64,000 bases of DNA from Periplaneta americana. Lineage: Eukaryota > Arthropoda > Insecta > Blattodea > Blattidae. The stretch is from the NCBI RefSeq assembly GCF_040183065.1, contig NC_091120.1:7501-71500 (forward strand), written 5' to 3'. The position numbers and the translations under genes were made by a program. Below, in pieces: positions 11,026-59,044 of this stretch. Each line of letters opens with the position of its first letter. Positions within the stretch are counted from its first letter, which is position 1. Below the pieces are notes generated by a model, which ran no database searches, was not told the origin of the DNA, and was given only the letters and a program-made list of their open reading frames with translations.

Positions 11026-12010
11026 ATGGCGAACCGACGTGGCATGAGACAGCGAGTTATAGCTTTAGTTGAGCTGGACATGGGGCTACATCTCCTGGCC
11101 GTTTGGTCAGTGTTCCTGGAAGTACAGCCGCGAGGTAGGTTCGTTACCAAAATTTAGGGGAGGTCGAAAATCGCCCTATTCCTGGGCGTCCGCGGATTTC
11201 TTCATTGGAAGAGGATGCTCTCTTATTCCAGACAGTTCGATACGACCCCTTTCTGACTGCTAACGCAATAATAACAGCATCTAACTTTTCCGACTCTTCA
11301 CAGACTCTGATCAGCAGGTTTAGGAACCGCAGTATTAGGTGCCGGAGGGCTGTGCAAATGGAAATATTGGGGGAGGCATAAGCTGTCGACCGTCTCGCCT
11401 TTGCTACAAATCGAGTAGATTTCGATTGGACGAAACTACCATCTCGATTGATTACGAAGGTCCTGTCCGTGTCTATCGCGAGGATGGTCTCCGACATGAC
11501 CAGCGCTATGTGCACCGACGTGTAAGATCGGGGCGCTTTACCATATCGTGTTGGGGGTGGATGTCTTACGATGGACCTAGCGTTATAGAACGCATCGATG
11601 GCCGGTTTAATGCGGGAACTTACGAGCACATTCTGGAAAATATATTCCTTCCCTCAGCCAGGCAACGTTTTCCCCAATGAACATTGCAGTTCCAGCAGGA
11701 TTACCATCCCGTGCACTATACTGCAAGCATTCAATAATGGTTTCAAAGGAGACCCGAGATCCAAGTCATTAATTAACCTCCAAAGTCACCTGATTTGAAT
11801 GTCATCGAAAATTTATGGGCGGAATTGACAAAGAGAAGGATAGTCACCTATGCCCACCGACGCCATCGAAATCGAGACGAATTGTGGCATCAAGTTGACA
11901 CCTGGGAAGATCTCGCCGGGGATCAGAACTTATTCAACAATCTCGTGACATCCATGCCGGATCGACTTAGAGCTGTAATAGAAGCTGATGGCATGTGGAC
12001 AAGATTTTAA
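11026..12010 (+). pseudogene. Tc1/mariner-like DD34E transposase, broken
   Basis: The probable start is the ATG at 11026 (MANRRGMRQRVIALVEL). The reading frame changes several times. Recognisable blocks in order are: an N-terminal paired-type helix-turn-helix, much decayed; VYREDGLRHDQRYVHRR at about 11,470-11,520; a conserved SGRFTISCWGWMSYDGPSV block; FNAGTYEHILENIFLPSARQ; QFQQDYHP, holding the second catalytic Asp, near 11,690; and SPDLNVIENLW, holding the catalytic Glu, near 11,800-11,820. The C-terminus ends ADGMWTRF before the TAA at 12008. The spacing between QQD and IENLW fits DD34E. The same block order is seen in the copies at 16220, 32350 and 57153. At least three frame changes make it non-functional. 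Confidence 0.85.
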
Positions 12011-12138
12011 GTTAACAGGTCTCTCTGTTTCTTATGATTTTTGTCAGAAATTGGGCATAAATTATTCCATATTTTTTCGACAAATTAGACAGTCGAGGAA
12101 ATCTGAACTAATTAATGACACCTCAATAAAAAAAAAGT

Positions 12139-12209
12139 TTTACCCGGGATCGAACACGAGACGTTTCGGTTATACAGTGGATCCAACACGCTGCTATATG
12201 ATCTACAGA
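12139..12209 (-). repeat. tRNA-like module inside the right arm of TLE-1
   Basis: Reading the minus strand, an A-box-like GTAGATCATATAGCAGCG is followed at tRNA spacing by a B-box GTGTTCGATCCCGGG. A run of nine T (plus-strand A-run at 12128-12136) then supplies an RNA polymerase III-type terminator. The cloverleaf is imperfect, so this is a tRNA-derived sequence and not a working tRNA gene. It points inward, towards the transposase, as do the modules of the other copies. Confidence 0.6.
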
Positions 12210-12482
12210 GACAGGACAGTGACAGCAGCAGTCCAGAATGTAGATCCCTTAGCAGGCATTTCCCATTCAGTACAGTTAAGCAATGATATTTTGTGACTCG
12301 AGCTATGTTGTGAAATCCTGGTCTTAAATGGCAGTCTTCTTCGTGATCCTTATTCTGGTCCTTGTAAGAATTCTTGACTATTTGTCATGGTATGTATCGT
12401 TACGTCGATATCGAGTGTACCGCACTGTAGAACTTTAACTTCCAACGACCAAGAATCATCTCATTCTTTTTAGGGGTAACTG

Positions 12483-13337
12483 TACATCTTGTAATTTAAT
12501 TTATATTCGAATATTTTTTACCCCTTGACCCCTGTTCGCCTGTTTATATCACAATAAGTTTTTTAAATATGACTTTAGAAATTGTATCTCAGAAATTAAG
12601 AACATATTATATTATATCTTATTTTGGATACAATATGATACAATATATAAATTCCCAATAAGTCACTTTTTAACATATAATAATATTGTGGGATACATAT
12701 ATTTTTGAAAATAAGACATTGTTCTTTCCTCAATGCTTAATTGATTGGCAACGTGATTTTATAGTTAGAATCTCGCAGTAACACATTTTCGGACATGAAC
12801 AACAATATTTATGGAGACCTATAATTTAGAATTATTACAATTTTATTTTCACTGGGCTTACGTACATTCACATACTACCATTAGTAACATAACAAAAATA
12901 TCACTGAGTTGCTTTTTGGTATGTGTAAAATGCTTTGTTTTCCCCTCCTTTGCATAAATATATGTATATAAAATATGTATAGGTGTGCCCACTCGAAGGC
13001 AAGCTGCATAGTTGGGAATGTGAAAAACACGGAGTTGAGCAACTGTCCCTAAGCTTTGTTTTAATACGGCCATTACAAATGCTAGTACCACTGAAATAAA
13101 ATAGCAGTTGCAAGTTAGTAGGTATCATAGGAATATGTGAAGTAAAAACATCTTTTGTTTTACCACTTAATATTGTCACATATTACTTTTTTTTTCTCGC
13201 ACCAATTCTTGTTCCATTGCATAATTTTGGCATGTAAATATTTTGCAATAATTCCGGTACTATTGGTGATTCAATTTTTAGTAGGCTATTAAATTATGTG
13301 GTTTCAAAGAATTCAAGAATTCATTTGGATAAAATAC
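12483..13337. other. AT-rich spacer, nothing recognised
   Basis: Sequence between the right end of TLE-1 and the 56-bp satellite. It is AT-rich with a few short inverted words, and no coding signal, repeat end or RNA gene that I can name. Short open frames on the minus strand between 12858 and 13179 overlap one another and have no recognisable product. Confidence 0.55.
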
Positions 13338-14712
13338 AGCTTGCTCACTATCTACAACTGTTTATTTAGAATAAAATAGCACTATTCACTAGTGTTTCTC
13401 ACTGTATCCACCGATGCTTATTTACAATCAAATTCACTACAGTTTCTCACTGTATCCACTGATCTTTATTTAGATTAATATAGCACTATTCACTGCTGTT
13501 TCTCACTGTATCCACTGATGCTTATTTCGAATAAAATAGCACTATTCACTACAGTTTCTCACTGTATCCACTGATCTTTATTTAGATTAAAATAGCACTA
13601 TTCACTGGTGTTTCTCACTGTATCCACTGATGCTTATTTCGAATAAAATAGCACTATTCACTATAGTTTCTCACTGTATCCACTGATCTTTATTTACAAT
13701 AAAATAGCACTATTCACTGGTGTTTCTCACTGTATCCACTGATGTTTATTTCGTATAATATAGCACTATTCACTATAGTTTCTCACTGTATCCACTGATC
13801 TTTATTTAGAATAAAATAGCACTATTCACTGGTGTTTCTCACTGTATCCACTGATGGTTATTTAGAATAAAATAGCACTATTCAATATAGTTTCTCACTG
13901 TATCCTCTGATGCTTATTTACAATAAAATAGCACTATTCACTATAGTTTCTCACTGTATCCACTGATGTTTATTTAGAATAATATAGCACTATTCACTGG
14001 TGTTTCTCACTGTATCCACTGATCTTTATTTTGTATAAAATAGAACTATTCACTATAGTTTCTCACTGTATCCACTGATCTTTATTTACAATAAAATAGC
14101 ACTATTCCCTGGTGTTTCTCACTGTATCCACTGATGTTTATTTAGAATAAAATATCACTATTCACTATAGTTTCTCACTGTATCCACTGATCTTTATTTA
14201 GATTAAAATAGCACTATTCACTGCTGTTTCTCACTGTATCCACTGATGCTTATTTCGAATAAAATAGCACTATTCACTATAGTTTCTCACTGTATCCACT
14301 GATCTTTATTTAGAATAAAATAGCACTATTCACTGGTGTTTCTCACTGTATCCACTGATGTTTATTTCGTATAATATAGCACTATTCACTATAGTTTCTC
14401 ACTGTATCCACTGATCTTTATTTAGAATAAAATAGCACTATTCACTGGTGTTTCTCACTGTATCCACTGATGGTTATTTAGAATAAAATAGCACTATTCA
14501 ATATAGTTTCTCACTGTATCCTCTGATGCTTATTTACAATAAAATAGCACTATTCACTATAGTTTCTCACTGTAATCCACTTATGCTTATTTAGAATGAA
14601 ATGGCACTATGCACTATAATATACCACTGTTTCCACTGATGCTTATTTACAATCAAATAGCAATATTCACCATAACATCTCACTGTATCACTGATGCTTA
14701 TGTAGAATCTAC
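13338..14712. repeat. 56-bp satellite array with higher-order structure
   Basis: About 24 tandem copies of a 56-bp unit. The unit reads TTTCTCACTGTATCCACTGA, then a variable TCTTTATTTA/TGCTTATTTC segment, then AATAAAATAGCACTATTCAC, then a six-base linker. The linkers mostly alternate between CTGGTG and CTATAG, giving a 112-bp dimer. Rare variants recur at a fixed distance: TATCCTCTGA at 13901 and 14517, and the TTTCGTATAATATAG variant near 13748 and 14364, both 616 bp apart (11 units). Units at both edges are degenerate (for example near 13,340-13,430 and 14,580-14,700), as expected if unequal exchange homogenises the middle. Confidence 0.95.
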
Positions 14713-14959
14713 TGATACATTAACAAGAAATTAGATAGGCTCCAAAACTAGACACGATTAGGATTTTACAGCTTGGAGAGCACAGCAGCCTACTTTTTTT
14801 TAACTTGGAACACTTGCAATGGGTTTCATTCTTAACCTTCAGTGCCTGCTTTTCATTTTGGACCTTTAGTAATTATTAATGAATATGTTGGCCAATACCT
14901 TGCTGCTAATAACTCATACTCCTTGTAAGGTTTCAACTTTCGTAGGAAAACTTAATTAA
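14713..14959. other. Spacer, nothing recognised
   Basis: Short AT-rich interval between the satellite and the duplicated segment at 14960. No feature is supported. Confidence 0.5.
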
Positions 14960-15088
14960 TTTGGAAATGAAAATGGAAATTTAGGCTATCTTCTCTGATA
15001 ACGAAATAACAACGACTTTGTTTGGTGGGGTCAAATGTTCACGGTGGATGCTTCTTGTCCACTTACAGTATATCTTAAATCTTTATCT
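14960..15088. repeat. Duplicated segment S, copy 1
   Basis: About 125 bases shared with 34955-35083. Shared words include TTTAGGCTATCTTCTCTGAT, ATGTTCACGGTGGATG and TCCACTTA, ending at a similar TATCTTAAANCTTTATC. The second copy has a small extra block of about 26 bases in the middle. Copy 1 lies next to the left end of TLE-2, copy 2 next to the duplicated unit R. It is an interspersed repeat fragment or a small segmental duplication of unknown origin. Confidence 0.8.
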
Positions 15089-15244
15089 TTCGGAAAAAAA
15101 CAATACATGTACAGTTGTAAAAAAAAAAAGTGGCCACACTCGTGAACAGCGAATATTTTCTAAGTCCACTTCGGGTCACGGTGATGTTACACGATGCATG
15201 TGCTTTTAGAAGCAGTTCCGGAACTATGAAATCATTCCATATCT

Positions 15245-15310
15245 GCGCCTTGTAGACCAGCGGTAGAGAGTTCGCTTAATGATTTGAAGGTTGTGAGTTC
15301 GGGCCTTGTT
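15245..15310 (+). repeat. tRNA-like module in the left arm of TLE-2
   Basis: A-box TAGACCAGCGGTAGAG and B-box-like GTGAGTTCGGGCC lie at normal tRNA spacing, with the segment starting about 135 bases inside the transposon end. The anticodon arm is not convincing and the 3' half of the acceptor stem is absent. T-rich sequence follows. The phrase GGTTGTGAGTTCG is also found in the module at 58614-58684. It is tRNA-derived, inward-facing and unlikely to make a tRNA. Confidence 0.6.
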
Positions 15311-15332
15311 CTGGTTTTCATTTTATTTTTAA

Positions 15333-15560
15333 TTGTTCTTTAGCGATAGGTATAAATACTGCATTATTCAAATTATCATTTATATTCTGTTATCGTTCTT
15401 TATCGATATCAATAATATTCAAGTTATTTATATTTTTTCGTTCCTTTAGCGATATATATAATATTCAAGTTATATTTTGTTATATTGTTATCGTTCTTTA
15501 GCGACGTGAATAATATTCAAATTATCATTTGTATTCTGTTATCGTTCGTTAGTGATATAA
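15333..15560. repeat. Minisatellite, about 50-57 bp unit, 4-5 copies
   Basis: The core ATCGTTCTTTAGCGATAT recurs near 15,336, 15,393, 15,439, 15,491 and 15,541. Each copy is followed by AATAATATTCAAATTATCATTT-type sequence with small length changes. It lies inside TLE-2 between the left tRNA-like module and the transposase. No such array is seen at the same place in the other Tc1-like copies. Confidence 0.8.
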
Positions 15561-16219
15561 TATAAATTTAATGTTAGGTTTAGAACAATACAGCTGCCTA
15601 ATACGAGTGTTAGTTTTTTCTTCTTATACCGTTATATTATTACTTTATACTATCCTGTAACATAATAAATTGGAAAGGTGTCACGAGCCTGATACGTTGA
15701 CATTTCAATTCCCAATTTCGCGACGTCCGACATTCCTACGTTCTTCTGACTGGGCTATATCATTTACCTGGTATTAACGTAATTCAGCGCATTGTCAGAA
15801 ACACTACAACTGAACATTCATTTAGATTATATTCTGAATATTTAATAATGATATGAAAAGATTACGTTTGTGACAATAATATTTGTAGTTGTAATACCAA
15901 CTGCAACAGCAGCAGTGTTAACAGCAGCAATGATTAAGGACGTATTGCGTGGATACAGTTCAATACAGATTTTTCGAAAACAAATTACGCCCCTGAGGTC
16001 GAGATTATAAAATAATTATATTCTTCTTAACTCTGTGGACTTCATGTTTGAAAATGATACAGTTATTAATAAGACTAACAAGTATTTATATTTTTATTTC
16101 CTAATTGAAGAATATATATTTTTAGTATAATGAATGTTTTGCTGTTATTTTAAGACCTAGGTAGACGCTAATTCTCTGAGGAAACCACGACGCCATTTCA
16201 GCCTGCGACTTTGACTGAC

Positions 16220-17113
16220 ATGACTCCACATAGAGGTGCAGGAACGAATGAAAGTATAATACGTGCTGTGGTTCATCTTGGTTTTTCGGCATCCGAGACA
16301 GGTAGGCGTTTCAACGTTTCAGAAAGGACAGCCCGGAGATGGGTGCAAAATTATTAACGCTCGGCAATTTTTGGCCGAAAAGCTGGAAGTGGTAGAACGA
16401 AAATTTCAACACCACAACAGGACGCCTGATTAGTGGCAGAGCTTGAAAGGAATCCCTGTCATACCGCTGCTATTTTGAAGGCAGTTGTTAATTTCCCTGG
16501 CCACGACCAGACCGTGAGAAATCGTTTAAGGGCCGCCAATTTGAGATCTCGACATGCCATTCCTACGAAAGTTCATAAGGAAGAGGATATAGGGGAGCGT
16601 TTAGTCTTTGCAGTGGGAAATGGTGATCGTGATTGGAAAAGAGTAATCTTTTCTGATGAAGTCACCTTTTCTACTGCAAAGGAAGGACCCACTCTTGTAT
16701 ATCGTACTCCTGGTATCCGATTCGACCACAGATACACTGCTACGCGTGCCCGCAATGGTAGAGTATCTGTGTCATGTTGGAATTCTTCAGTTTCAGCAGG
16801 ATAATCATCCAGTCCACACATCTCATTTGATTCGGGACTAGTTTGCGAGGAGACAGGATATTGAATTGATAGACTGGCCTCGTCGTTCTCCGAACTTGAA
16901 CCCTTTAGAGTATATGTGGGGTCAAGTAAAGAAGCATATGCGGAAAAATTGGCCCAATCCCCCTCCAAGAATCCCTGATGATTTGTGGAAACTCGTCCGT
17001 GGTCCCTGGGATGCCTTGTCTGAGAACAGTCGTATTTGAAAACTCTAGTCGATTCCATACCCACTTAACTGCAAGATGTGATCGAGATGGGAGGAAGATG
17101 GACTAAATACTGA
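16220..17113 (+). pseudogene. Tc1-like DD34E transposase with internal deletion
   Basis: The ATG at 16220 opens MTPHRGAGTNESIIRAVVHL, followed by GFSASETGRRFNVSERTARR, a paired-like helix-turn-helix. A stop interrupts soon after WVQNY, and a second one precedes VAELERNPCHTAA. The HTH2-like part NFPGHDQTVRNRLRA and the catalytic block RVIFSDEVTFS (first Asp) are intact in frame 16433-16804. The conserved SGHVSVPCWGWMSSDG region of the copy at 32350 is cut after RVSVSCW: about 60 residues are missing. The gene resumes at FQQDNHPVHT (second Asp) and SPNLNPLEYMW (Glu). The C-terminus ends GGRWTKY at 17110. Non-functional. Confidence 0.85.
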
Positions 17114-17202
17114 TTCGTGGCTTTTTTTTTAAGGCAGATGCCTGTAAGTTTGTTTTGTTTATGCCACGAAAGATATTTTTGTTGAGAATATAATCTTTCT
17201 TT

Positions 17203-18482
17203 CAGTGGCGGCTCCTGCATATTTCTTAAGACGAGGAAAGAAATTAACAGCACTAAATGACACCTTCTTGAATGAAACATGCTACAAATTAGTCTACATG
17301 CATACATGTAAGACCAGATAGAGTTGGGGTTGGCCTTCCCTTCTTTATAGCAATAATCTGTTGTTGTAAACTGAGTTTCCTAAATTGTTCAAAATATATT
17401 ATGATTTCACTTCCATTCATTGTTGAATAATTGCACAAATTAACAATTACAAGGAAATTCACAACCTCGTAGCATTTTTCGAGCACACTACAGCATCACA
17501 CGTGTTGGAAGAGACTAGCTACTAACTCATAACCGGAACCGTTTTACAGAAATGGATATGGGAAATAATCTGAGGAAAGTAAGAACATCGCACCCACCCA
17601 CGTGGTCTGTGTTGCCACATGTGCATTTTACAAGTTCAGTATCACATGCTTTTGAAGAATGTCAGTTCTTGTAAAGTCATACTATCATTATTGTTCAAAG
17701 CTGCCAGTGGCCGATTAATTTTTTAAGTTAAAAATAATGTAGTTTGGAGTACCTACTTTCAGTTTCAAATATATTTGTACAAAACTGACAACTTGGCTGT
17801 TGCCCTGTCTAGTAAACAATGAATATAAGTGAATTTCAGGGGCCAACTACGTAAAACTATTTCCTCTTTGCCTTACATAAACCCGATTAACTTTCAAATA
17901 TCCACGATAGTTTCAAACCATGAATAGTAGCCTATATAAAGTGCAATGAATAATATTTTTTATTTTTAATTTTAAAAAAAGTTTACTTGGTGTCTTTCAT
18001 AGCATTGCATTAAAACTGTTTTTGTTGTGCCTCCTCCTAGATGTGTTATAGTCCAGTTGAATGCAACATCGTTAGGTGGCAGTGGTAGCGAGCTTGCTGC
18101 ACAACCAGTCAGTTTCTATTTCCCGCCCATGACTGATTCAGAGGAGGATCTCCTCCCTCTCCGTTCATTTACTTGCTTTAAAACTCAGCTTCCTTCTCTC
18201 GCCGCTAGTGCGCTGTTGTCTGTGTGTGTTAACTGCAGTAGAGGAGGAATGGAGTGCCTTTCCTCCACACAGACAATCTCGCTTCTTTCTCAGTTTTCTA
18301 GCGGCACATGAGTGCGCGTCGTTTAAAACTCAATCAACCGAGTTTTTCTTATAGCTCTGAACTTAAAAATTATCGAATCTTCCTCGAATTTCAAGGCACA
18401 TATTTTATTTGGTATTTACTTTCAAAAGAAGAAAATGTGAGGAGGACGTTCCTCCCTTCCCTCCCCCGAGGAACCGCCACTG
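17203..18482. mobile_element. Non-autonomous hAT element inserted in TLE-2
   Basis: The ends are inverted repeats: CAGTGGCGGCTCCT on the left and AGGAACCGCCACTG on the right. The element is flanked by a perfect 8-bp target duplication CTTTCTTT (17195-17202 and 18483-18490), which is the hAT signature. It is 1,280 bp long. An internal open frame at 18027-18311 has no resemblance to a transposase, so the copy is probably non-autonomous. It lies between the transposase and the right arm of TLE-2 and is therefore younger than TLE-2. Confidence 0.9.
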
Positions 18483-18634
18483 CTTTCTTTCCATTTGCAG
18501 CCATAATGTCATAATAAATAATGACAGAGTCATGGCATAATACATTCATGAACCTGATGTTAATTACTAAAACAAGTCATAACAGAAACAGAAACAATTA
18601 TATTTTCTCCTCTCCTAAACAAAACAAAGAGCAT

Positions 18635-18704
18635 TAGGTTGTGTTGGAACGCATGACCTTACAAACACTTGCTGAAAACGCTTCCATTACGCTACAGATT
18701 AACA
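18635..18704 (-). repeat. tRNA-like module in the right arm of TLE-2
   Basis: On the minus strand, A-box TGTAGCGTAATGGAAGCG is followed at tRNA spacing by the B-box-like GTCATGCGTTCCAACAC. It starts about 140 bases from the right terminus (18844), which mirrors the left-arm module at 15245. Its sequence differs from that module, so the two arms do not carry identical tRNA-like units. The fold is imperfect. Confidence 0.55.
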
Positions 18705-18846
18705 CGCATAATCTTTCATTCTGACTGTAGATATCAGGCCACGTGGTCCAACAACATGTAACATCACCTATCTCCGAATTGTAGCAGAGATACCCGAAGG
18801 GAACTTTGTTTCTAGAGAGCGGCCACTTTTTCTTTTGACAACTGTA

Positions 18847-19519
18847 CCAACGGACTTTCTTAATGATAATTCCATTTACAATCTGGGACATTACACGTCC
18901 GAAGCATTTCAATGTTTAGTCTAGTAATAACATAACTCTTTCTTCACTACCAAAAACAATAATACCAAATATAAGGTTGCAATTCTGTTATTATATGCTA
19001 ACTTATAAACCTCTCAACAATTACACTAGAAGTCAATGATACAAGAAACAAACAGTTACATCAAGTAAACATGCCTCCACAATTATTGCGATACCTGCTA
19101 CACTGTCAAACATTCTAATCACTTCCGCTTCCAGTAGCAGTTCCGGTACTATTTAGAAGGTCCTGCTATCACCATCCTGTCAAGATCTGTTAACCTTAGC
19201 GAATAAAAAATATTTTGCACTGTAAAAGCACAAACCATTATTTGTATGTAAGACTGCTAGAAAACGAAATGTGAAAAAATCTGTAATTACTGAAGAAAAA
19301 TATTTTTTATGGACCCAATAGTGAATAAAAATTAACTATCCAAAAAATTAAATTATGCAACAAAAATATTGACATTACAACTCTATTTCGTTGTCTCTTA
19401 TCTGGCAGAATATAATTTTTGAACATAAATAGAGTTTTTAATAGAGTTTAAGTTTGCAAAAACGAATAAGACATGTAGATAACGCATTTTCCAAATACAT
19501 GGTGATACTTTAAACCTTG
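18847..19519. other. AT-rich spacer, nothing recognised
   Basis: Interval between TLE-2 and the hAT element. AT-rich, with no supported gene, repeat end or RNA. Confidence 0.5.
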
Positions 19520-19527
19520 ATTATTAC

Positions 19528-25704: not shown

Positions 25705-26487
25705 TATAGAAATAAGGAAAGTACTGATAGAGTAAACATAACCTATATTTTCAACACATCAAAATATGCGTGCGATGCAACTGAAAATTGTTGAAACATG
25801 CTTAAATGAATGTGCAAGAATTTCGTTATGAAGTGAGCATGCTTTAGTTCAATTAATTACAATACTAGATACTGTAACAATAATGAAAACTATAAAGTAT
25901 AATTTTTCACAATATACTGTATGTATCTCGCTTTTAGTTCAAATTGTGTATATTATCTAACTTCGTATTATTTATAATGTAGATTATTTACACATAAAAA
26001 GGGCGCTATAATTTAAATTTAATAAAACAAATACGGTAAACTAACAATAATGGATTAGACCGACGAGAGTAACATCAGTAACGCTGCACTTGTACTTAGG
26101 CCTAATCATAATTTACTTTACATCCGAGTCAATGTTTCACTTTCACGTGTATATTATTACACTTATTTACTAACACCAAAAATTCACTTAACCACATAAG
26201 GGCGCAATGTTTAATCGAAATAAAGGCAGGTATTACACATACGAACTTTGCCTGCAACAACGTAATTTTTACTCCAAAAATAATATTATACCTTACGTTG
26301 CAAATGAATTGTGTCTCACAATCACTGTTTAAAATTTTACTGACGCAATTACACGCATTTCAGAGAAATATATGTTATTTTTCATGTACTGCAACTAATT
26401 GACATGGTTGAAAGACCACCCTTCGTGATCAGCTGTTAAGCGAGTCACGTGGTCTGCCTTACGGCCTGTATTAGATCACGATGGCAG

Positions 26488-26757
26488 TGCTCTAGCACAC
26501 ATGAAACAGTTGACTCTAATCTGAGGACGTTGAGAAAGCGATCAAATTTGCAGTACACTCAAAGACAGCATTTTCAAATCCAGTGTTGCCAATTGCATGT
26601 TGCATAAATATTACAAGTTTCCAATACATTACACGCAAAATGAACGTGTTTTATGAAAGCAACAATTTTGTCTCAAGTTTACTTTATTACATTCTAGATG
26701 GCACTCCAATGTGCATGCGATTATCGACATTAAAATTGATGCACAAAAACTATTCCA
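26488..26757. repeat. Right part of unit R copy 1 (segment B)
   Basis: Matches 35983-36236: CTCTAGCACACATGAAACAG, TATTACAAGTTTCCAATA, ACACGCAAAATGAACGT, AAGTTTACTTTATTACATTC and TGCATGCGATTATCGAC are shared. It continues unit R across the A1 insertion. At its end the two copies diverge completely. Confidence 0.85.
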
Positions 26758-27173: not shown

Positions 27174-27245
27174 CGCAGGTTGGTTCAGTTGGTTGCGGCG
27201 CTGTACTACTAATCCCAACTTCGCAGGTTCGAATCTCGCCCAGGT
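27174..27245 (+). repeat. tRNA-like sequence
   Basis: TTGGTTCAGTTGGTTGCGGC (A-box-like) and GCAGGTTCGAATCTCGCCCA (strong B-box) lie at tRNA spacing, with a plausible anticodon-loop region around TACTACTAATCCC. The acceptor stem does not close well. I do not find the Tc1-like terminus upstream, so this one may be the head of a SINE or an isolated tRNA pseudogene. Confidence 0.55.
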
Positions 27246-32349: not shown

Positions 32350-33144
32350 CTAACTCCATTCTATCAGTCTGACATATGGCCTCTCTGTAAACCAACTCAT
32401 GACCTCGGCACATGTGTGAACACAACGATTATCCTGTTGGGATACGATCTCAGCATCATCAGGATATATCATCCGTACAGAGGGAAGCAAAACATTTTCC
32501 AATACGATCTTATATTGTTGGGCATTAAGATTTCCGTCGAGTCGCCATAGAACACCCAGGCCATCACTGGACATCCAGCCCCAACATGGAACAGATACAT
32601 GGCCACTGCAAATGTGAGTTGCCACATGCATAGGATCGTATCGGGATCCCCATGAACGGTAGACTATTTGCCGCCCATACTTGACAGAGGAAAAAGTAAC
32701 TTCGTCTGAACATATTACCTTATTCCAATCGAAATTAACATTTTCTTCTGCAAATGCAAGGCGGAATAATCTGTGATCATCAGTAATGCACCCTTTCATT
32801 GTTGCCACTCTTGGATAACGTCCTACGTCCCGTAGACGCCTTATGACAGTGCGAGAAGATCCAGGGAAACGGGCATTTGCTTTAATTGAAGAAGCAGATT
32901 GATGCGGGTTTGCTTCTACTTCTGCAACTAAAGCAGCGTCCTGTGCAGGAGTTGAAATACGTATTCTACCAGAACCTGGTTGACGATGTTCAATTCCTTC
33001 CCTGGATAATCTCACCCATCTTCTAGCTGTGGAATCGTGCACTCCTAGTCGCCTACCTGCCTCAGTAGCAGAAAATCCGGCCTCCCTCACAAGAGAAAGA
33101 AGAGCTTGGCTACACGTATCTGGCCTATGTCTTCTGTCAACCAT
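32350..33144 (-). pseudogene. Tc1-like transposase, longest intact frame, C-terminus missing
   Basis: The best-preserved transposase in the window: 264 uninterrupted codons from MVDRRHRPDTCSQALL. An in-frame Met 25 codons upstream (33219) lies beyond the MITE boundary and is unlikely to be the native start. GFSATEAGRRLGVHDSTARR (about residues 22-41) is the first helix-turn-helix. GSGRIRISTPAQDAALVAEV and NARFPGSSRTVIRRLRDVG form the second DNA-binding part. VICSDEVTFSSVKYGRQIV holds the first catalytic Asp; VSVPCWGWMSSDG follows; VSQQDNRCVHT holds the second Asp. The frame ends at RLIEWS, where the SPDLNPIENLW Glu block should follow. About 80 residues are absent, so it is inactive. Confidence 0.88.
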
Positions 33145-33165
33145 GTTACCCCTGATAATGACAAG

Positions 33166-33386
33166 CAGTGTTGCCAACTCCATTGTTAAAAACTCGCTAT
33201 GAGACCGTGCAGAAACCACTAAATTGCTATTTTATCAATGTAAAATTAGATTATTTTGCCGCTTTGAGTGCTAAAAATGCCCGCTAAATCCCTATATCAG
33301 CAATATAAATTTCATAAATTTTACCCGCTAAACTAACACTGAAAAACGCTAGATCTAGCGGAAAAACCGCTGAATTGGCAACACTG
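33166..33386. mobile_element. hAT-type MITE, 221 bp
   Basis: Left end CAGTGTTGCCAACTC, right end GAATTGGCAACACTG, with a perfect 8-bp target duplication ATGACAAG at 33158-33165 and 33387-33394. It is too short to code. It was inserted 21 bases upstream of the probable transposase start codon of TLE-3, so it separates the coding region from its 5' arm. Confidence 0.92.
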
Positions 33387-33672
33387 ATGACAAGAGAGAA
33401 TGGTTGTTTCATGTTTAATATGCGCAGTTATATGTGCGCAGAACTATGTTTTCAGTTCCAGATGTCTCTGAATAAAATACACATCAATATAGAAATAAAC
33501 ATCTGACGTCCTTATGGGGTACACGACCTTGAATCGCCTAGACAAGAAGCAAGGTTGTTACATAGCAGAGCAGATATGTAACGGCACTATTTAGGAGTGT
33601 AGCCTATATCTGGAAATCACTGGTCTCGTCTTTAACATTATTCATCTCGTTTTTGCAACACTATTAAAATTA

Positions 33673-33686
33673 TGATGATGATGATG

Positions 33687-33733
<47 letters not shown>

Positions 33734-33760
33734 TGCTACTACTACTACTACTACTACTAA
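33673..33760. repeat. Trinucleotide microsatellite
   Basis: (ATG)n grades into (ATT)n and then (TAC)n. On the minus strand it would read as poly-His, poly-Asn and poly-Ser, but the surrounding frame has no protein-like character. It is a simple repeat in the 5' arm of TLE-3. Confidence 0.95.
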
Positions 33761-33975
33761 TACTAATTTTAGTAACTGAACAATACTCCTTATGGAGAAG
33801 GGAAAAGATCCAAGAACTGAGCATCTATTTTAATTGAATGGTAATTAGGAAGAAGTCTCCGATATTACTGAATGTTTTTATTTAATTTTTCAACTAATCC
33901 AAACTCCTGTGCACGTTAATAAATGTATCATTTTTTATAGCTAGAGAAAAAATAAAACGAAACAAATATATAAGA

Positions 33976-34040
33976 AGGCAGATAGGAACCCGGGTTTTCT
34001 GCGTGCGAAGCAGAGTTTTACCACGGAGCTATGACACACA
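33976..34040 (-). repeat. tRNA-Ala(CGC)-like module in the arm of TLE-3
   Basis: On the minus strand: ATAGCTCCGTGGTAAAAC (A-box-like), then a 5-bp stem TCTGC/GCAGA closing a 7-base loop TTCGCAC (anticodon position CGC), then CCCGGGTTCCTATC (B-box-like with weak T stem). It starts about 160 bases inside the outer end at 34202 and faces the transposase. Of the modules here it has the best anticodon arm. The acceptor and T stems are damaged, so it is tRNA-derived and not a confident tRNA gene. Confidence 0.6.
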
Positions 34041-34204
34041 CACAGTTCAAACCGTTGTTTGTCGATATAAGAGTATGTTCTTGGATCTCGCTGGTTTCGT
34101 CCTTACTATTCTGACTTTAGTCTTTGTATCAGGTGCACAGCCGAACGGAACTTAGACAAATTTACGCTTCAAGAGTTCGGTCATTTTTTTTGTCTAAGAA
34201 TGTA

Positions 34205-35083: not shown

Positions 35084-36236
35084 ATCACGCTTGTACAATT
35101 ACATCTCTCTGGTCAATTGTGGAGTCCTCCATACCTGAACTTGTTGAAAGGCTGTGTGGTCCAGGGGTAGGTGAGCAGCTACAGCATGACTCCTCCGTGA
35201 TAGAAGCGTGGCCACTCAGGCAGAGTAGAGCCTGCGAGTTCGATGCGGAGCCCAGCCCCCAGTCACGCAGCAACCACTTCAGACGGATGCACCTCATGTT
35301 CCCCAGGTAGAAGCTCTGAAGCTTGCTTCGGCAATCTGGATGGCTTGGAGCAGTCGCGTTCCTCCTGCTAGGGCAACGGACATACGTAAGGGTCTAGGCA
35401 CCAGAGAATATACTAAACCCAATGTAGGAGTCATTGGGCTCTAATAAGTAAACGGAAGAAAGACATCTAACAACTCCAGTTTAACTCAACATAGTGGGCT
35501 GGGAGCTCATAAGGGCTCTTTCAACAAAGTGACTAGAATATTAATGGCTCGCGAGTAGACTAATCAAGATGTCTTTAATACTGTTAATTGCATCTGATTC
35601 ATACATTTCAAGCATGGAACAATCTTTGCATAAAGAAGTGTACATTAGGTACATCTATAGGCCTAATTTTGAAAATGAGTTAAGCGATGATAGTTCAGAT
35701 TCTGACTGACAACTGTAATGGTTGTTTCTTAGTCCGAATTGTCTATGATTTCAACATTGTCTACTTCATTGTAATTCGTATCCTTAATTGGTATTTATTA
35801 TTTCAATTCACTCATTTATAATTGTAACACTTACTATTTCAAGATTTGACGTTAGCCCCAATCTCTACCATTACTTATATATTAAAACTAACCTTTTTGC
35901 TTCGTACAATTGAACTTCGGCAATTCTGACATCCGTCGTCATTGTATATTTCAATAAACAGATACATTAGTCCCCTTGCCTCTAGCACACATGAAACAGT
36001 TGACTGTAATCTGAGGGCTTTCAGAAAGCGATCAAATTCGAAAGCATTTTCAAATGCACTGTTGCCAATAGCATATATGTCATGTTGCATAAATATTACA
36101 AGTTTCCAATATATTACACGCAAAATGAACGTTCTTATGAAAGCAACATTTTTGTCTCAAGTTTACTTTATTACATTCTAGATGGCACTGAAATGTGCAT
36201 GCGATTATCGACTTCTACATTGAAATTGTTGCACAA
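35084..36236. repeat. Duplicated unit R, copy 2 (uninterrupted R plus B)
   Basis: This copy lacks both the MITE and the 2.9-kb A1 insertion found in copy 1, so it preserves the two empty sites (near 35,855 and 35,980). It ends at TTGCACAAAAG where another A-type end begins at 36240. No coding function is assigned. Confidence 0.85.
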
Positions 36237-36239
36237 AAG

Positions 36240-36566
36240 CACTGCCATCGTGATCTAATACAGGCCGTAAGGTAGACCACGTGACCTGCTTAACAGCTGA
36301 TCGCGAAGGGCGGCCTTTCAACCATATGAATTAGTTGGAGTGCATGAAGAATAACATATATTTCTCTGAAATGTAGTGTAATTGCATCAGTAAAATTTTA
36401 AACAGTGATTGTAAGACACTTGAGACATAATTCACTTGCAACTTAAGGTATAATATTATTTTTGGTGTAAAAATTACGTTGTTCCAGGCAAAGTTCGTAT
36501 GTGTAATACCTGCCTTTATTTCGATTAAATATTGCGCCCTTTGTGGTTAAGTGAATTTTTGGTGGT
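36240..36566. mobile_element. hAT-like element A2, one end only
   Basis: CACTGCCATCGTGATCTAAT followed by ACAGGCCGTAAGG starts an inverted copy of the right 320 bases of A1 (26,160-26,487 reversed). Matching words include ATATTTCTCTGAAATG, GTAAAATTTTAAACAGTGAT and TAATACCTGCCTTTATTTCG. The match stops near 36,566, and the second terminus is not found, so the copy is truncated or internally rearranged. Confidence 0.75.
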
Positions 36567-43315: not shown

Positions 43316-43353
<38 letters not shown>

Positions 43354-46287: not shown

Positions 46288-46304
46288 CACCTAGAAATCC
46301 GTTC

Positions 46305-50744: not shown

Positions 50745-50770
50745 CAGTGGCATGCGGTGCAAATTTATGT
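50745..50770. repeat. Orphan hAT-type end
   Basis: CAGTGGCATGCGGTGCAAAT followed by TTATGTGAGGGTAGCG resembles the start of a hAT-type element. It does not pair convincingly with the end at 52601-52620. Confidence 0.4.
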
Positions 50771-51925: not shown

Positions 51926-52170
51926 CTGGCTGATATGTACATCTGTTATCACTTGACGATATGCGTCAGAGGAAGAACAATTGTTTGTATGCATCTGAAG
52001 TCTGATTAGTGTAATACATACCTAGTCAGCGATGTATGTAATGGAGAGGGAAAGGAACTGGTTACACTACCCCATTATCTCCTGGCTTAGTTGTCTCATG
52101 AGTGATGCCTTATTGGTGTCATTTATAAGGTTCATACCTGTCTTCGGACAGTTGGCTAAACAACAATACC
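51926..52170 (+). repeat. Interspersed repeat family C, most complete copy
   Basis: Begins CTGGCTGATATGTACATCTG, then CACTTGACGATATGCGTCAG, AGGAAGAACAATTG, GAAGTCTGATTAGTGTAATA, GGAAAGGAACTGGTTACACT and CTCATGAGTGATGCCTTATT, ending GGCTAAACAACAATAC. It serves as the reference for the copies at 29171 (partial, minus) and 60755/61851 (interrupted). Nature unknown; a retroposed origin is likely from the A-rich end. Confidence 0.8.
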
Positions 52171-52600
52171 GGTACCGTTATCTAATATCAAATTATTCAT
52201 GACATTGATTGATTAGATTGAAAATGTGTTTATAAATTTTAAAATCCACCAGTGAAGGGATTTTAAGCAATTCAAAGACAGTCGGGTCATGAGTATTTGT
52301 AGGGTAAATGTCCATTTATTCTGAAGAAATTCTTTTTAGTGAAATACATGTGTGGCACCAATATTCTACAGCAGCAGTTCCTTGGACATAGTGCTTAGGA
52401 CTTCACAAGAAAGACATGATCATTTAAAGTGAAATACAGTAATTGCTGTGTAAACAGGAAATGAACAGAAATCAAACCTGTTCAGAGTGTTATTTTCTAG
52501 AATGCATTTTTGACTTCTTACCTTAATGCTATCGACTGTAACGATTGCTCTTGTTCCAAGATTTAGTTTTAATGTTATTTTGCATAAAGGACTTGGGCCC

Positions 52601-52620
52601 ACCCGCTGGCTACGCCACTG
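52601..52620. repeat. Orphan hAT-type end
   Basis: GCTGGCTACGCCACTG is the reverse of CAGTGGCGTAGCCAGC, like the end at 34934. The other terminus is not identified. Confidence 0.4.
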
Positions 52621-54035
52621 AAGTAAAACAATACCGGCACTTAAATTATATACTAGGTCTGTTGTGTTCTTTTCTCTGTCACCTCTTGCAGTGTATGCAG
52701 CCTCTGTGATTCCTGCTCTTCTTTAAGTATATTTCGGCCAGTTTATAATGTGCCTGAGTATAGGCCTACAGTTACTCATACTGTAGTCCGCAAAATGAAG
52801 TATGATTTTAGAACATGCAAGAACGAAGACGTCAGTCATTACAAATGTTTAGCGGATATACTTTAATACTAAGCTGTGTACTAAAATATGCAGAAGTTCC
52901 TTCATCTACCAACTTACAACAATATTTTGAACAAGAATTTTTCAATGTCGAATACATTTCTTTTTCATGAACTACTACCAACTTTGGATGTTAGAAATAC
53001 GTCTGGAAAGTATAACTCTGCCATATAAGTTTTTTACAAGGACTGCATGAATAGCCATTTTAAAGAGAGAACATTGTTATACACATAAGTGCATTATGTT
53101 ACTTTAAATTTGGAAACTTCTTCTTCTTCTTTCTCTTCACTCCTACAGAATAAAAAAAAATGAAATGATGTTCGACATAAACCAGATTACTCAGTTCAAT
53201 GTGCGACATTCTCAGTCTTTCAAAATGTGCAAGGATCTAGACTAGTTAAAATCAATTTCATTTAATTTTTATATACTAATGTGAGAGCTCTATTTCATGT
53301 TTGTATCAATTTCAGATTACCTATATTGCACTTGAATAGACATTATTTGTGATTTATGCAAAATGTTAAGATGTTATTCACAATTCTGAAACTATTAGCA
53401 TAATAAAATAAAACATGTTCCAGGATTTAAAGCAGTGTTGAATTTTTAATTTCCTTTTCACATTTGTATCTCCAGAAAGCCTTTGTCGAATATTTCACCA
53501 TTTGAGTAAATTAACTTAGATGATTAACTCAGTTTTAATAATTTCTGTGAAGATGATTACATTGCACAGTTAAATTTAAAAAAATGTACTTTGTAAGATG
53601 ATGAAGTTAGTGACAGTCCACAAAATGATGCACACCGCGAAGTGGATGAAACTCACTCTAGTGGAGAAATTCTATTCATGGATGTTGGTAGGCTGACTTA
53701 CTTATCCTCGATTTCATATTTATAGGGAAGAAAAGAGAACTTAACCTTCTTGTGAAAAGCAGATCAATATCACTGCAAGGGAACATTACAAGGACCCCAT
53801 AGGGAATATTACAACAGATGGAATCAGTCCTTTGGTCCATTTCCTCTTGAAATTGATAGAACATGTGCTAAATGCAAGAAATTCTTCCAGGTACTTTCCT
53901 GTTAAAAGTACTTTACAATGTTTTCGGACAGATTGATACGTTGCCTCCTGCACTTGTGGAAAAAGATTGTTAGGTACAGACATACTGAAATTACGGCAGG
54001 AAAAAAGGAAGCTTCTCACTGGAAATCCATGTGCT
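52621..54035. other. No recognised feature
   Basis: AT-rich; nothing supported. The short minus-strand open frames at 53676-54040 have no recognisable product. Confidence 0.45.
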
Positions 54036-54104
54036 TTCACCGAAATTTGAATCTGAACTCTTTATCATGGAAAGTGGATGCTCTAACCATTTGACCACTC
54101 TCAT
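54036..54104 (-). repeat. tRNA-like sequence
   Basis: On the minus strand GAGAGTGGTCAAATGGTTAG is an A-box-like start, with AGAGCATCC following, and AGATTCAAATTTCGGTG a B-box-like end at tRNA spacing. I could not find the Tc1-like terminus outside it, so its context differs from the modules of the TLE copies. Confidence 0.5.
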
Positions 54105-56308
54105 AAACTTATTTTTATCATTTCAGCTTACTGTTCTGTTGATACAGAATTGTTCAAAACGAAATATCTTTTCTTTCTTCTCCCACAACTTCATGAAACG
54201 TAGTACCTGCAATGCTTATTATGTAAAATGACTGCAGTTGTTTAACACACTAATATTTTAACATGTCTACCAAGTAACTCCAGTTCCATCGAACCCACCC
54301 AATGTGTACCATACAGCTAGTCTTCCGACAATGAGAGACATAACCTCGAAACTAGTCAGCCAGGTATTTTTATAATATTAACATTGTAAAGAAATTATTT
54401 TTAATCACTGTTAAAAGAGTGTACCAGATAATGAAAAAATCGTCATTTACGCAAAAAAGCAAGAACCTGTCCGCAAAGAACACCTTAGCTTCTTCATGCA
54501 GGCAGTGACCACTTTGGTTTGGGAGCTCTCGACTGCCATACCATCATTACAGTGAAATCAAAATTATTCCCCAGCCATTCTGTCATAGCTGCAGCCTCAC
54601 ATTACTGGAGCAATGAATGTCAGAACACTCATTGATCTATTTATCCCTTATACTTGCAGGTTCTTTTGGAATATTTTCAATCCGACAATTTATAATAATT
54701 TGGTTAGAGACTGTGATCTTAATTGAGAGAAGTATTGACCAGTGTAAACAGTGGGTAGGCTGAAAAAATCTGCTTACTCTTGTATCTTTTTATACCTACA
54801 ACATGTCTCTCGGTTTTTGTGATACAGACCCACAAGAAGATGATGACATTAATTTTCACCCCCAAACACAATACAGGTATAACAATATAACTTATTTGTT
54901 AGGCAAAGATACTCGTATTTCTCATACCACGACAATTGAAAATTTCTATTTCGTCTTCCTCCATCCACTATTTTAATATGTAAATGTGGTGTTTATCTCC
55001 TATCTTTGTAAGCACATTTTGTTTCATACATCCAACTTGAAAATGGTTCCTTAATATTACTGTATTTCAATAATTTCTTGATGATTTTTAAGTAATGTAA
55101 ATACTGTTTATTATTCTCCGTCAAAATTACGTATTATTATGATGAAACTGTACATAATCTGTGGCTGATATGTCCTTATTTTACCGAAAAAAATTAATGT
55201 ATACTGTTATTTAGTATAAATGAGGGGCGGGAACAGGGAGTTCAGCTTCTCCCGCTGTCTTACGTTGATTGCAGCTATTCCTGCTGACTGCTCTGTTCCC
55301 AGTCTCTGGTATAATCAGTTTTAAATAGAAGAATAAAATAGACCCAATTTAAAAATTCGACATTTCTGGTCATATTTACAAAAAAAATGTAATTATGCAA
55401 ACAGCAATTCTAAATATTGTATTCCATGTTTATATTCTGGATGTCACAAACACTGTTTCAATAGTTGTGCTGTAAGAATAGGTTAAAATGCACATTCCTA
55501 AATCAGATCCTTAAAACCTTAAATAATTCACAATAAGGTTTTCATACACACTTTTGAGAAGTGAAATAATTATTGTTAATATCAGTGCGTCAAAAATAGT
55601 TGGCAATGACAACAGATCCACCAAGGTGGTTTCTGTATAATATGGGGCATTGTGTTACCCTCGTGGTTTATTGTTCCAATGTAATTACTGACACTGAAGC
55701 TTCTTCCCAGCCGAACTTATGAACTTACAATCATCACCACATTAAGAATAAAATTTATCTTGGTACCAGTATTTATGTTTTTGTTTTTGTGTAGTACACA
55801 GCTCTTTACGAAAGCCACCCTTAAACAGAAGCCCTTTATAAGCTTCATAAACATCAAATAACTATAACATGAGTTTCAAAGCAGCTTCTTTCACAGCTCC
55901 TGCCATCATTAGGTGAGTGTCTGCCTTCATATCGATTTTTAAACCCAACAAATATTTCTGTTAACATATTGGATACAATCTGTTACCCCATACTCCGAAA
56001 AACAACTATCTGTGTAAACTGCAACCTGGCTCTTGATAAATGTGGGAATATATAACGAAAATAATTACAGGGAAATGAATAAAATTAGAACTAAACGTGT
56101 TAAAAATATACTGTAGATATTCAAGATATGATAAAATCAATGGCTCTTGCATGTATAAAAGATGAAAAATTTTCTCGTTCTCTCATTTCAAAGTCTGCTT
56201 TAAGATGTAACCAATGCCAAGAAAGATATGAGAAAATGAGAAAGAGATTTTTAAATCCTCAAAAGATAACCAAAAAAGACAGAATGCCAGAGGCATGAAA
56301 ATATATAC
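54105..56308. other. No recognised feature
   Basis: About 2.2 kb of AT-rich DNA. No coding family, repeat terminus or RNA gene is recognised. Confidence 0.45.
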
Positions 56309-56900
56309 CAGTGGCGCAGCCAGAATTTGACTGTGAGGGAGGGAGGGTTTGAAATTTTATTAAAAAACTGACTATAAAACAAACACTACATAATATAAGA
56401 TATTAAAAAAAATCAGAATGGACAAATACGTAAGGAACTATTCATCTTGAACCAGTATGAACAATACATTTCGAACAAGACATCCTGTTAAAATAAAATA
56501 AAGTGAAAGTGAGATGAAATGACCGACATCCCTTCTGCATTTCTTAGCTACTTCCTTGAGCACATTACTTTCATTCAAAGGAACTTTCTCATGTAGACCT
56601 ATGAATGTACCCTTAACGGAAAAAAGAATGGGCCACCGACAATTTCTAAGTTCCAGATACATAACATTGCACATGCTCATCTCGTCAAAGCCGTAGTTCA
56701 CCAGGTAACACATAATTAAACCATTTAAATTTGCTGCATTTTGTTTAAGAGTCTAAAATATGTTATAAAATCGAATAGAGAGTTAATTCTAGATACATCA
56801 GGACTTCTGAAGAGTAAAATAATAATAAAATTGATAAATACAAAATCAACCGAAGTGAATATGAACAGGAAAACCTCATATTATGCCGAAACGATATTAA

Positions 56901-56978
56901 CGGTCTCAGTAGCGTAAGTCGTTACAGCATTGGTCTATTGAACGAGTTAATAGTAGCTCAAGGTTCGAATCTCCCACA
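56901..56978 (+). repeat. tRNA-like module in the left arm of TLE-4
   Basis: TCAGTAGCGTAAGTCGTTAC (A-box region) and CTCAAGGTTCGAATCTCCCA (strong B-box) are separated by more than usual, as in class II tRNAs with a long variable arm. A T-run at 56983-56992 provides a polymerase III-type terminator. tRNA-derived, not a confident gene. Confidence 0.6.
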
Positions 56979-57152
56979 ATATTTTTTTTTTTAATAACAA
57001 TTTTGACATCATATATGTCTCGCAAAGCTGCATTTATATCGCGATATCTCTTAGAAAATGCCCAAACTCTAATAAATAATAAACCTCCTACTCTCTTTGA
57101 AGCAATATTCCTGTCAGTAATAAAACGTTCTGTCTCATCATTACGCTTGAAG

Positions 57153-58118
57153 ATGGCAGAGAGACAACTCCGTCAACAAGGCCCTGGTTTGCGTAGGTTA
57201 TTCTGCATCGATGGCAGCCAGAGAGATTGGAGTCCCATTGTCAACTGCTAAGCAGTGGGCTAAATTTTTTTATTGAGAATGGTGAAGTTGTGAATTGTCC
57301 CATTCCTGGTCGACCACGCATCTTTACAAAGGAAGAGGATCCCATGTTATTGAGAGAAGTTGAGAACTACCCCTTTAGAACTGCCTCTCAACTCAAGATG
57401 GCGTCCAACTTTACAGGTTTCCCACACACCGTGAGGAGACGTTTTAGAGAGCATAGCATACAGCATCATCGAGCTGTGAGAAGAGAAAATTTTGACGATG
57501 GAGCATGCCGTGGACCTTCTAGGGTACGCTACTCTCCAACAGGACTTCGATTGGAGAAATGTCATTTTCTCCGACAAGGTAAATGTCCTGCCCTAGTTTA
57601 TCATAAGGATGGCCACTGATACGATGAACACTTTGTGAGACGACTTAACAGGTCGGGTCGCGTCGCGTGTTGGGGGTGGATGTCATACGTTGGGGCAGGA
57701 TTTCTGGAATGCATCCACGGTCGGTTTACGGCAGAAGTCTGCGAACACATTTAGGCAAATATGATCCATTCTGCCGGAGAACAATATCCAGAAGAAACAC
57801 TTTTCTTCCAGCAGAATAATCACCAGGTACACAGCGCCAACCGGATTCAAAGATAGTTAATGACAAGGCGGTCGACTGGCCTCTAAAATCACCAGATATG
57901 AATCTGATTGAAAATTTGTGGGCTACAGTCAAATGGATCCTAAGTTCTAATTTGGCAGAACAACCACCCGCTCGGACAGCTGACGAATTGTGGGACAGAG
58001 TTCTAGATACGTGGGAGGAGGTGGCCATGAATTTCACCTGTTCCATAATCTTGTGGACTCCATGCCGCGCAGAATGAGGGCAGTTGTCGACACAGGTGGT
58101 TTGTGGACGAGATATTAG
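57153..58118 (+). pseudogene. Tc1-like DD34E transposase, broken
   Basis: The ATG at 57153 opens MAERQLRQQG. After a frame change the helix-turn-helix reads VGYSASMAAREIGVPLSTAK. IPGRPRIFTKEEDPMLLREV, NYPFRTASQLKMASNFTGFP and HTVRRRFREHSIQHHRAV follow. FSDK marks the first catalytic Asp near 57,570. SGRVACWGWMSYVGAG is present. The second catalytic motif reads FFQQNNHQVHS, so Asp is replaced by Asn. SPDMNLIENLW gives the Glu near 57,900-57,920. The C-terminus ends GGLWTRY at 58115. Several frame changes and stops confirm it is dead. Confidence 0.85.
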
Positions 58119-58613
58119 TCCCCACCACAGGCCTTTTATTTTTGTTAATATTAATAAATTGTTTGTTTTTTGTTTATTTAATTATTTATTTATGTTTGAT
58201 ATGCATCCGGTTTTTTTAGGGTGTGAAACAAGTATTTTTGTTTATACAGGCCAGGTCTCGCCTATTAATACCCCACAATTGATGGGCAATAATATTTTTT
58301 TCATTACCATCAATCACTCAATCTTCTTAATGTATCCAGCTGTTTGCTGACAACATAAAGTCCACTGTAGCCTATTCATTTGTTGTTTTTCACGAGAAAT
58401 GAGGTGTATTTTGATCGGTGTTCATTATAGATGCCTGTTGCTAGTAGCCAGAGTTGGGGTGTAGTCAATATATACTGCAGGGCTGTGTCTTCTGCAACTG
58501 GTACTGATGATTTTAATTTACTTCTTTTGTGGTTTTATTATTATGAACAAATGCCATATCACATTTAAACTAATAAATTCATTACAAACCAAAATTTAAA
58601 AAATAATAATTTT

Positions 58614-58684
58614 ACCATACCGGGAGACGAACTCACAACCTCTGGTACGTATGTCAGACATCCTACCACTGAGCCACACATAGC
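58614..58684 (-). repeat. tRNA-like module in the right arm of TLE-4
   Basis: On the minus strand TGTGGCTCAGTGGTAGGATG is a near-perfect A-box, and GGTTGTGAGTTCGTCTCCCG carries the B-box. The anticodon region contains TACGT but the stem is not clean. T/A-rich sequence follows. It begins about 140 bases from the terminus at 58823, the same spacing as in TLE-2. Confidence 0.65.
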
Positions 58685-59044
58685 TCATAAGGTTGACAAC
58701 ATTGTAGACAGACGACACCACAGCAGTGCTTTGAAGTGCAGTTTGTTTACACAAGTGAACCACGCGATAGAACTTAGCATTTCTATCGACCAAGAGTCGG
58801 CCCATTCTTTTTGCCATTAAGTGTACGTTATGGCGCACGTTATGTGCACGTTACATTTCCTTACTACGAGTAGTTACAAAGAGAGTTGCCATTATTGTGA
58901 GCAGGTTGTGTATTACTGGAAGTAAGTCACTGTTACAATGTTGCAGAGTTTCAACAGCATTTCTTTCTTTTTTTTTTTTTTTCCTGAGGGCTTTGAGGAG
59001 GTTTTTACCACCAAAATCCCCTCTCGCTGCGCCAGTGTATATAC

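Follow-up and report, generated by a model that had tools for sequence, protein, structure and literature searches.

A group of Tc1-like transposons from Periplaneta americana, whose arms carry A-box/B-box modules resembling tRNA genes and facing the transposase, is the subject of this analysis. The window, by which we mean the whole stretch of 64,000 nucleotides that was analysed (positions 7,501 to 71,500 of the forward strand of contig NC_091120.1, assembly GCF_040183065.1), holds four such copies, named E1, E2, E3 and E4, with the suffixes L and R for the left and right arm (Table 1). All six arms that survive in it share the outer design described in the original prediction, namely TA, CA or CC, an A-rich tract, a GGCC- or GACC-like block and a CTAAGTTC-like word, and in each of the six an inward A/B module was found where it had been placed. 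The window is a chromosome end, since it opens with a perfect (AACCT)n telomeric array of 10010 bp (1-10010); the genome scanned comprises 3.23 Gb in 91 contigs.

Table 1. Tc1-like copies and their inward modules in the window
Feature	Position	Strand	Description
E1 Tc1-like copy	10134..12484	+	5' part gone; starts at ~position 850 of the 3808-bp family consensus; by family-consensus BLAST
E1R module	12128..12205	-	inward; A box 12194-12205, B box 12146-12156, 9-T run (A on the + strand) 12128-12136
E2 Tc1-like copy	15110..18846	+	both termini present; TA at 15110-15111 and 18845-18846; transposase broken
E2L module	15253..15333	+	inward; A box 15253-15263, B box 15296-15306, then a T-rich stretch
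E2R module	18641..18694	-	inward; A box 18684-18694, B box 18641-18651
E3 Tc1-like copy	32350..34204	-	left arm gone; 264-aa transposase frame 32350-33144, C-terminus lost
E3R module	33980..34031	-	inward; A box 34021-34031, B box 33980-33990
E4 Tc1-like copy	56608..58825	+	both termini present; transposase broken
E4L module	56910..56992	+	inward; A box 56910-56920, B box 56962-56972, T run 56982-56992
E4R module	58623..58676	-	inward; A box 58666-58676, B box 58623-58633

By their domains and termini, the four families belong to Tc1/mariner. The E1 consensus passes the cut-off of the domain test for PF13358 and PF01498, and P0001, the truncated E3 copy, passes it for PF01498. TA is present at both ends of E1, E2 and E4 and in copies of the E3 family, and the left and right termini align as inverted termini in 4/4 families (p 0.003). 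Scripted for E1, the catalytic residues of the consensus show DD35E spacing (D143, D233, E269), with 35 residues between the second D and the E; relative to E1, transposase identity is 61% for E4 and ~42% for E3 and E2. Among named proteins, those most closely related to the E3 transposase come from Periplaneta americana, with at most 86% identity across part of the query. The window copy of E1 holds a decayed transposase from ~11026, the position at which the element itself had been thought to begin; its real start, obtained by BLAST with the family consensus, is at ~10134, where it is cut near the telomeric array.

This genome is well suited to tests on these elements, with 3399 matches to the terminus pattern TACASTTNNNNNNAAAAAGAATG (vs 2 for the reversed pattern) and open frames without stops, mostly of ~352 aa, in 103 of the 119 scored matches to a related transposase. 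Several open-frame matches on contig C1 adjoin E1-type termini, and the family with open transposase frames beside such termini looks young. For two of the three E2-type copies in the open-frame or near-open set, the left terminus was not found within the ~1.5 kb searched. Spread to other hosts was considered and rejected: when viral and GTDB contigs were scanned for the transposase, no relative was confirmed, and the terminus-pattern matches in these contigs (at least 114 stretches in GTDB, 42 in viral contigs) are taken for chance.

The modules lie at variable distances from the ends of the elements. From terminus to A box, the window copies of E2L and E2R measure 143 and 153 bp, and the consensuses of the remaining arms 165 (E4R), 178 (E3R), 195 (E3L), 299 (E1R), 303 (E4L) and 305 bp (E1L), so that the 135-160 bp first proposed fits some arms and fails as a general rule. 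Boxes were chosen by us, with a spacing of 37-71 allowed, in nine modules, namely the eight arms plus L092; in 6/9 of them the A-to-B spacing is 42-44, as in a tRNA gene. In this comparison, as in the tRNA-panel, arm-pair and module-pair tests below, the E2 arms are single window copies, and the E3L "consensus" is a four-row alignment with the arm present in two rows (L059, L061), on which all E3L tests rest. Within 45 nt of the B box, T-runs of 9 (E1L), 10 (E4L), 9 (E1R), 10 (E4R), 7 (E3L) and 6 (E3R) were found (shuffle p<=0.016). The window arms of E2 have runs of 5 and 4 only (p 0.23 and 0.28); that of E2L is weak, and the E2R consensus possesses a 9-T run which has decayed in the window copy. 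The expectation that modules often end in a T-run is thus borne out, with 6-10 T in 6/8 arms. By A box, B box at tRNA spacing and T-run, the modules show what would be predicted of a type-2 polymerase III promoter.

In order to compare the arms with their surroundings, the first 450 bp of each were scored with a fixed A/B consensus, which we take to be the usual one, against 420 background windows from the same DNA outside the elements, both strands being counted. The inward p-values were 0.014 (E1L), 0.021 (E1R), 0.052 (E2L), 0.019 (E2R), 0.052 (E3L), 0.019 (E3R), 0.021 (E4L) and 0.014 (E4R), which combine over the eight consensus arms to 5e-7 (Fisher), while the outward values of the same arms range from 0.24 to 0.89 and combine to 0.94. 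Single decayed copies score below the consensus, the window copy of E3R for example at p 0.071. For both E1R and E3L, the alignments use an A box other than the best-scoring one, which lies next to it; the A/B pair of the E1R alignment scores 22.5 (p 0.05) in copy L087. Two E2-type copies whose transposase frame is open have the highest-scoring arms, their right ones, at 26 (p 0.002). In a third E2-type copy, E6, the frame contains one stop and the scores are lower, with 22.0 for the right arm (p 0.071) and 22.5 for the left (p 0.05).

Two of the eight arms were looked up after the claim had been made. The left arm of E1, absent from the window, was recovered from other copies as part of the 3808-bp consensus and carries the module TAGCTCAGACGG ... 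AGTTCGATTCT, followed by nine T; the left arm of E3, likewise absent from the window, was recovered with its module, which is present in both of the two fetched rows (out of four) that reach the terminus. An inward A/B module is therefore found in 8/8 arms of the four families. That these modules are A/B-like words picked by eye in the AT-rich arms of elements from a genome in which tRNA-derived sequence abounds is a very improbable reading and already contradicted: 5% of the background windows do score 22.5 or more, and the whole window holds 18 A/B pairs vs 12 in Markov shuffles, but all eight arms point inwards and none outwards, both arms looked up later were positive, and tRNA likeness persists with the box letters fixed, as described below.

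Other copies of the same families also carry the modules. Each family search scored at most 40 places of 2359-4235 first-look candidates, including the window copy, and many of these places are partial. The module is present in 20/20 other copies of E1R and 8/8 copies of E1L, and the box columns are ungapped in 21/21 copies of E4L and 20/21 of E4R. By alignment, 6/7 copies of E3R have it, some with changed boxes, the seventh having it replaced by a TA repeat. Of seven E2R rows, six have the terminus and five the module, one row being without the terminus and one without the module; among eleven E2L rows, the A+B pair is in place in nine, the A box alone in all eleven, and p 0.05 is reached in six. 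In addition, 20 termini were picked for variety, not randomly, among the first 100 listed of the terminus-pattern matches, and an inward module at p<=0.05 was found in 12 of them.

The resemblance of the modules to tRNA genes goes beyond the two boxes, since with the box letters fixed it reaches p<=0.05 in 7/9 modules, the exceptions being E4L (0.16) and E4R (0.10). The tRNA panel used consists of 10 tRNA-like sequences from this assembly, including a SINE (short interspersed nuclear element) head and tRNAs from a bacterial-looking contig, and it is too small for naming isotypes; E1L aligns to it across 55 columns with one gap. Intact tRNA genes were considered and rejected. ARAGORN at its default setting finds none, and the Rfam tRNA model gave no match up to E=10 in three singly scanned arms, nor at the modules of 15 loci, so that by these models the modules are not tRNA genes. 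Lowered to 85%, ARAGORN reports 7 matches in the window, two of them on the E4 modules, and 5-10 in shuffles. The Ala-CGC identity once suggested rests on one decayed copy, and the E3R consensus differs there.

Insertion of SINEs at a preferred spot, another origin that had been put forward, is disfavoured by the constant inward orientation of the modules and by the lack of SINE hallmarks. No SINE-type target duplication was found around the nine modules, the longest word common to both sides being 6-9 bp, for which reason SINE capture, as judged by target duplications, was rejected; no SINE body was seen at the modules either. Genuine SINE-like units, as seen in the window and at locus L049, keep an Rfam-visible tRNA head and, by eye, flanking direct repeats. 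In the window, a tRNA-derived SINE-like unit lies at 63211-63465 between direct repeats AAACGATTCCTCTCATA (by eye), and its part at 63237-63295 scores 24.5 bits with the Rfam tRNA model, under the gathering score, in contrast to the modules. The second, a 50-bit tRNA-like unit at L049:9058-9129 (minus strand), is flanked by TTTCACTGTTGTTG repeats and lies outside an E1 element, ~105 bp from its right end; judged by eye, it has the same head as L076, a tRNA-like genome match. The best reading of the modules is that they are tRNA-derived type-2 polymerase III promoters, one per arm, as far as sequence features can indicate.

Whether such modules descend from a common ancestor was approached through alignments of 11 arm pairs. 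Of these pairs, 10/11 can be aligned at p<=0.05 over their first 90 bp and 7/11 over the module with its T-run, including 6/7 cross-family pairs, whereas none aligns over the spacer (p 0.08-0.97) or over the stretch past the module (0.07-0.94). A length-matched test without T-runs, covering the 36 pairs of the nine modules, gave p<=0.05 in 18/36 module pairs vs 4/72 flank pairs. Module pairs align more often than their flanks, so the module outlasts what surrounds it, or is renewed. Left and right modules of the same element differ, as had been noted: in E1, E2 and E3 they are not recognisable copies of one another (p 0.10-0.19), and in E4 they show a weak likeness (p 0.013, T-run included). 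More specific signs come from E4R and L092, which have the module and the upstream flank in common (p 0.002 each), from E1L and E3L, which have in common the module (p 0.002) and the downstream flank (p 0.03), and from the modules of E1L and E4L, which are nearly equidistant from the terminus (305 vs 303 bp). The case for descent would rest on these two pairs with a flank also in common and on the E1L/E4L distance, and the modules are probably old and inherited within the lineage.

Taken together, we consider it about even (probability roughly 0.5) that these elements form a Tc1-like lineage, with DD35E in E1, in which each arm holds an inward tRNA-derived type-2 polymerase III promoter on the inner side of its ~90-bp terminus. 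Several observations weigh against this reading. With regard to the modules as such, they were chosen as good A/B pairs in each arm, and the similarity of their boxes is therefore partly a matter of choice; for this reason, module pairs were retested with box letters fixed and the T-run excluded, which left 14/36 at p<=0.05. Moreover, E2L and E3L reach only p 0.05 in the arm scoring, as does E1R with the A box of the alignment, and the A-to-B spacing departs from the tRNA value in E4L (55), E1R (49) and E3L (39). With regard to their distribution, 8/20 of the picked termini have no module at p<=0.05. By eye, L090 and L095 among these are internal-deletion derivatives, L083 has an A-box deletion and L093 a weak module; L096 and L097 show a repeat expansion, with no module within ~875-885 bp, and L082 and L091 are module-less at p<=0.05 without explanation. 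The short derivative L095 (~176 bp) consists, by eye, of two joined termini without modules, and this one copy suggests that the modules are dispensable in cis for movement.

The remaining adverse points concern descent and bear on the question of whether the families separately took up tRNA genes or SINE heads. Half of the module pairs (18/36) lie above p 0.05, including E1L/E4L (0.19) and E1R/E4R (0.34), and similar pairs are as common between left and right modules (11/20) as between modules of the same arm (7/16), with no excess within arm type. Because of this, the similarity, which seems to be that of tRNA-derived pieces generally, is alone no proof of descent, and we have weighted the lineage reading down and repeated capture up. 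Repeated capture can also draw on the different panel members that the modules match, as E1R is closest to the SINE head and E1L, E4R and L092 best match tRNAs from the bacterial-looking contig, and on the richness of the genome in tRNA-like sequence (644128 first-look candidates). Nevertheless, a single orientation in 8/8 arms, the lack of target duplications around the modules, the flanks common to E4R/L092 and E1L/E3L and the E1L/E4L distance speak against it, and we regard it as unlikely. The idea of capture after repeated insertion next to tRNA genes is the less likely one, and that of a lineage with putative polymerase III promoters or boundaries of tRNA origin is favoured by the same module, flank and distance evidence, tempered by the left-right comparison.

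An alternative to which we give somewhat more credit, while still holding it doubtful, is that an ancestral element took tRNA-derived sequence into its long arms, perhaps within long inverted repeats, and that the remains are carried along without present function. The window copies of E2L and E2R can be aligned without a gap for 50 columns and have upstream sequence in common (p 0.004), as expected of a long inverted repeat in decay, and a cloverleaf is missing by Rfam and default ARAGORN alike. Furthermore, the boxes of E4 copies, with 0.054-0.069 substitutions per site vs 0.040-0.069 in the rest of the arm, are no more conserved than their surroundings, which also counts against the promoter reading; it is the stretch between the boxes that alone is faster (0.092-0.100). 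Against neutral carriage stand the persistence of A box, B box and mostly T-run between families whose spacers are unalignable, and the two open-frame transposase copies, which score best.

The fast-changing stretch between the E4 boxes bears equally on the suggestion that the modules yield a functional small RNA, such as a transposase regulator or a silencing decoy. This would agree with the T-runs after most modules and with E1L, which folds better than its shuffles (z -2.3). A conserved RNA fold was nonetheless rejected, as 8/9 modules fold no better than shuffles (z -1.2 to +1.6), and we consider a functional RNA quite improbable.

Returning to the lineage with promoters in its arms, the modules could be old parts of the lineage that are kept by selection on the promoter and not on a folded RNA, because neither a cloverleaf nor another fold is kept. 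Boxes and mostly a terminator persist and the fold does not, a combination that would favour a role at the DNA level, through bound factors. TFIIIC and polymerase III may assemble on both arms, where they would hold the arms open and protect the transposase gene and the termini against silent chromatin on either side; as a by-product, short transcripts terminating at the T-run, roughly 90-110 nt long, would then arise. We tentatively propose, as a possibility that we do not rate highly, a self-insulating transposon in which paired inward polymerase III/TFIIIC docks keep the termini and the transposase gene in open chromatin wherever the element has landed, and in which tRNA mimicry evades silencing. 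The boundary action in this scheme is what we infer for the modules. Should they bind TFIIIC, the DNA transposon would bring along two chromatin boundaries of its own, derived from a class of host gene whose silencing cells cannot afford, and the genome would contain thousands of dispersed A/B-box sites, from which new boundaries or small RNA genes could plausibly arise.

Some further features of the window and of the families were recorded. At the chromosome end (1-10134), the telomeric array is followed by ~120 bp of degenerate GC-rich DNA and then by the Tc1-like copy cut at consensus position 850, an arrangement in which the chromosome end has either been joined to a transposon or healed within one. 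Between E1 and E2, a tandem array with a 56-bp unit occupies 13320-14683. A strong tRNA-like A/B pair, TGGTTCAGTTG ... GGTTCGAATCT, is located at 27181-27236, outside all four elements, and adjoins a dispersed repeat (26198-26739) which is itself related to 35980-36541. The E1 consensus contains an extra tRNA-like A/B unit (1921-1963, minus strand) upstream of the transposase and facing away from it, in a ~390-bp stretch that is absent from the window copy; its interpretation as a buried right arm was rejected, as it matched none of the eight arms (p 0.08-0.87). At L055:5121-5238, two E1 left termini apparently stand head to head.

In the titles and abstract beginnings of the searchable literature, with subscription papers and Repbase outside that scope, the layout described here was not found, and the arrangement is therefore taken as new within Tc1/mariner as far as this literature shows. 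A link of a C. elegans Tc2-type repeat to TFIIIC was looked for by a term search in one paper and not found there (PMC6950938). The closest likeness in transposase and termini is to Traveler (DD35E) and to DD34E Tc1 elements, which have in common with E1-E4 the TA target, CAGT/CACT-like termini and a transposase of 336 aa with HTH and DDE_3 domains, together with the DD35E spacing seen in E1. Traveler is described from ray-finned fish, frogs and squamates only, measures ~1.5 kb and has inverted repeats of 13-68 bp, and the word "tRNA" occurs 0 times in the main text of its description (PMC7093834). By that description, E1-E4 are set apart through their host range and their long arms with a tRNA-derived module in each (PMC7093834). 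With tRNA-derived SINEs, of which this genome also harbours SINE-like units, the modules share A and B boxes derived from tRNA; they differ in that no body is seen, no target duplication is present and, as parts of a DNA transposon, they have the same orientation in its two arms. Dada transposons are likewise DNA transposons linked to tRNA sequence, as they are reported to insert into tRNA and snRNA genes (PMC3706591). For Dada, as far as described there, the tRNA gene is an outside target, whereas in E1-E4 the module lies inside both arms, 143-305 bp from the TA target (PMC3706591). Finally, A/B-box units of mobile origin act, or have been proposed to act, as chromatin boundaries in the case of TFIIIC/tRNA-gene and B2-SINE boundaries (PMC8136502). 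The TFIIIC/B2-SINE boundaries of that account are single SINE loci, whereas E1-E4 would combine a pair of such units, with a presumed boundary role, within one cut-and-paste element (PMC8136502).

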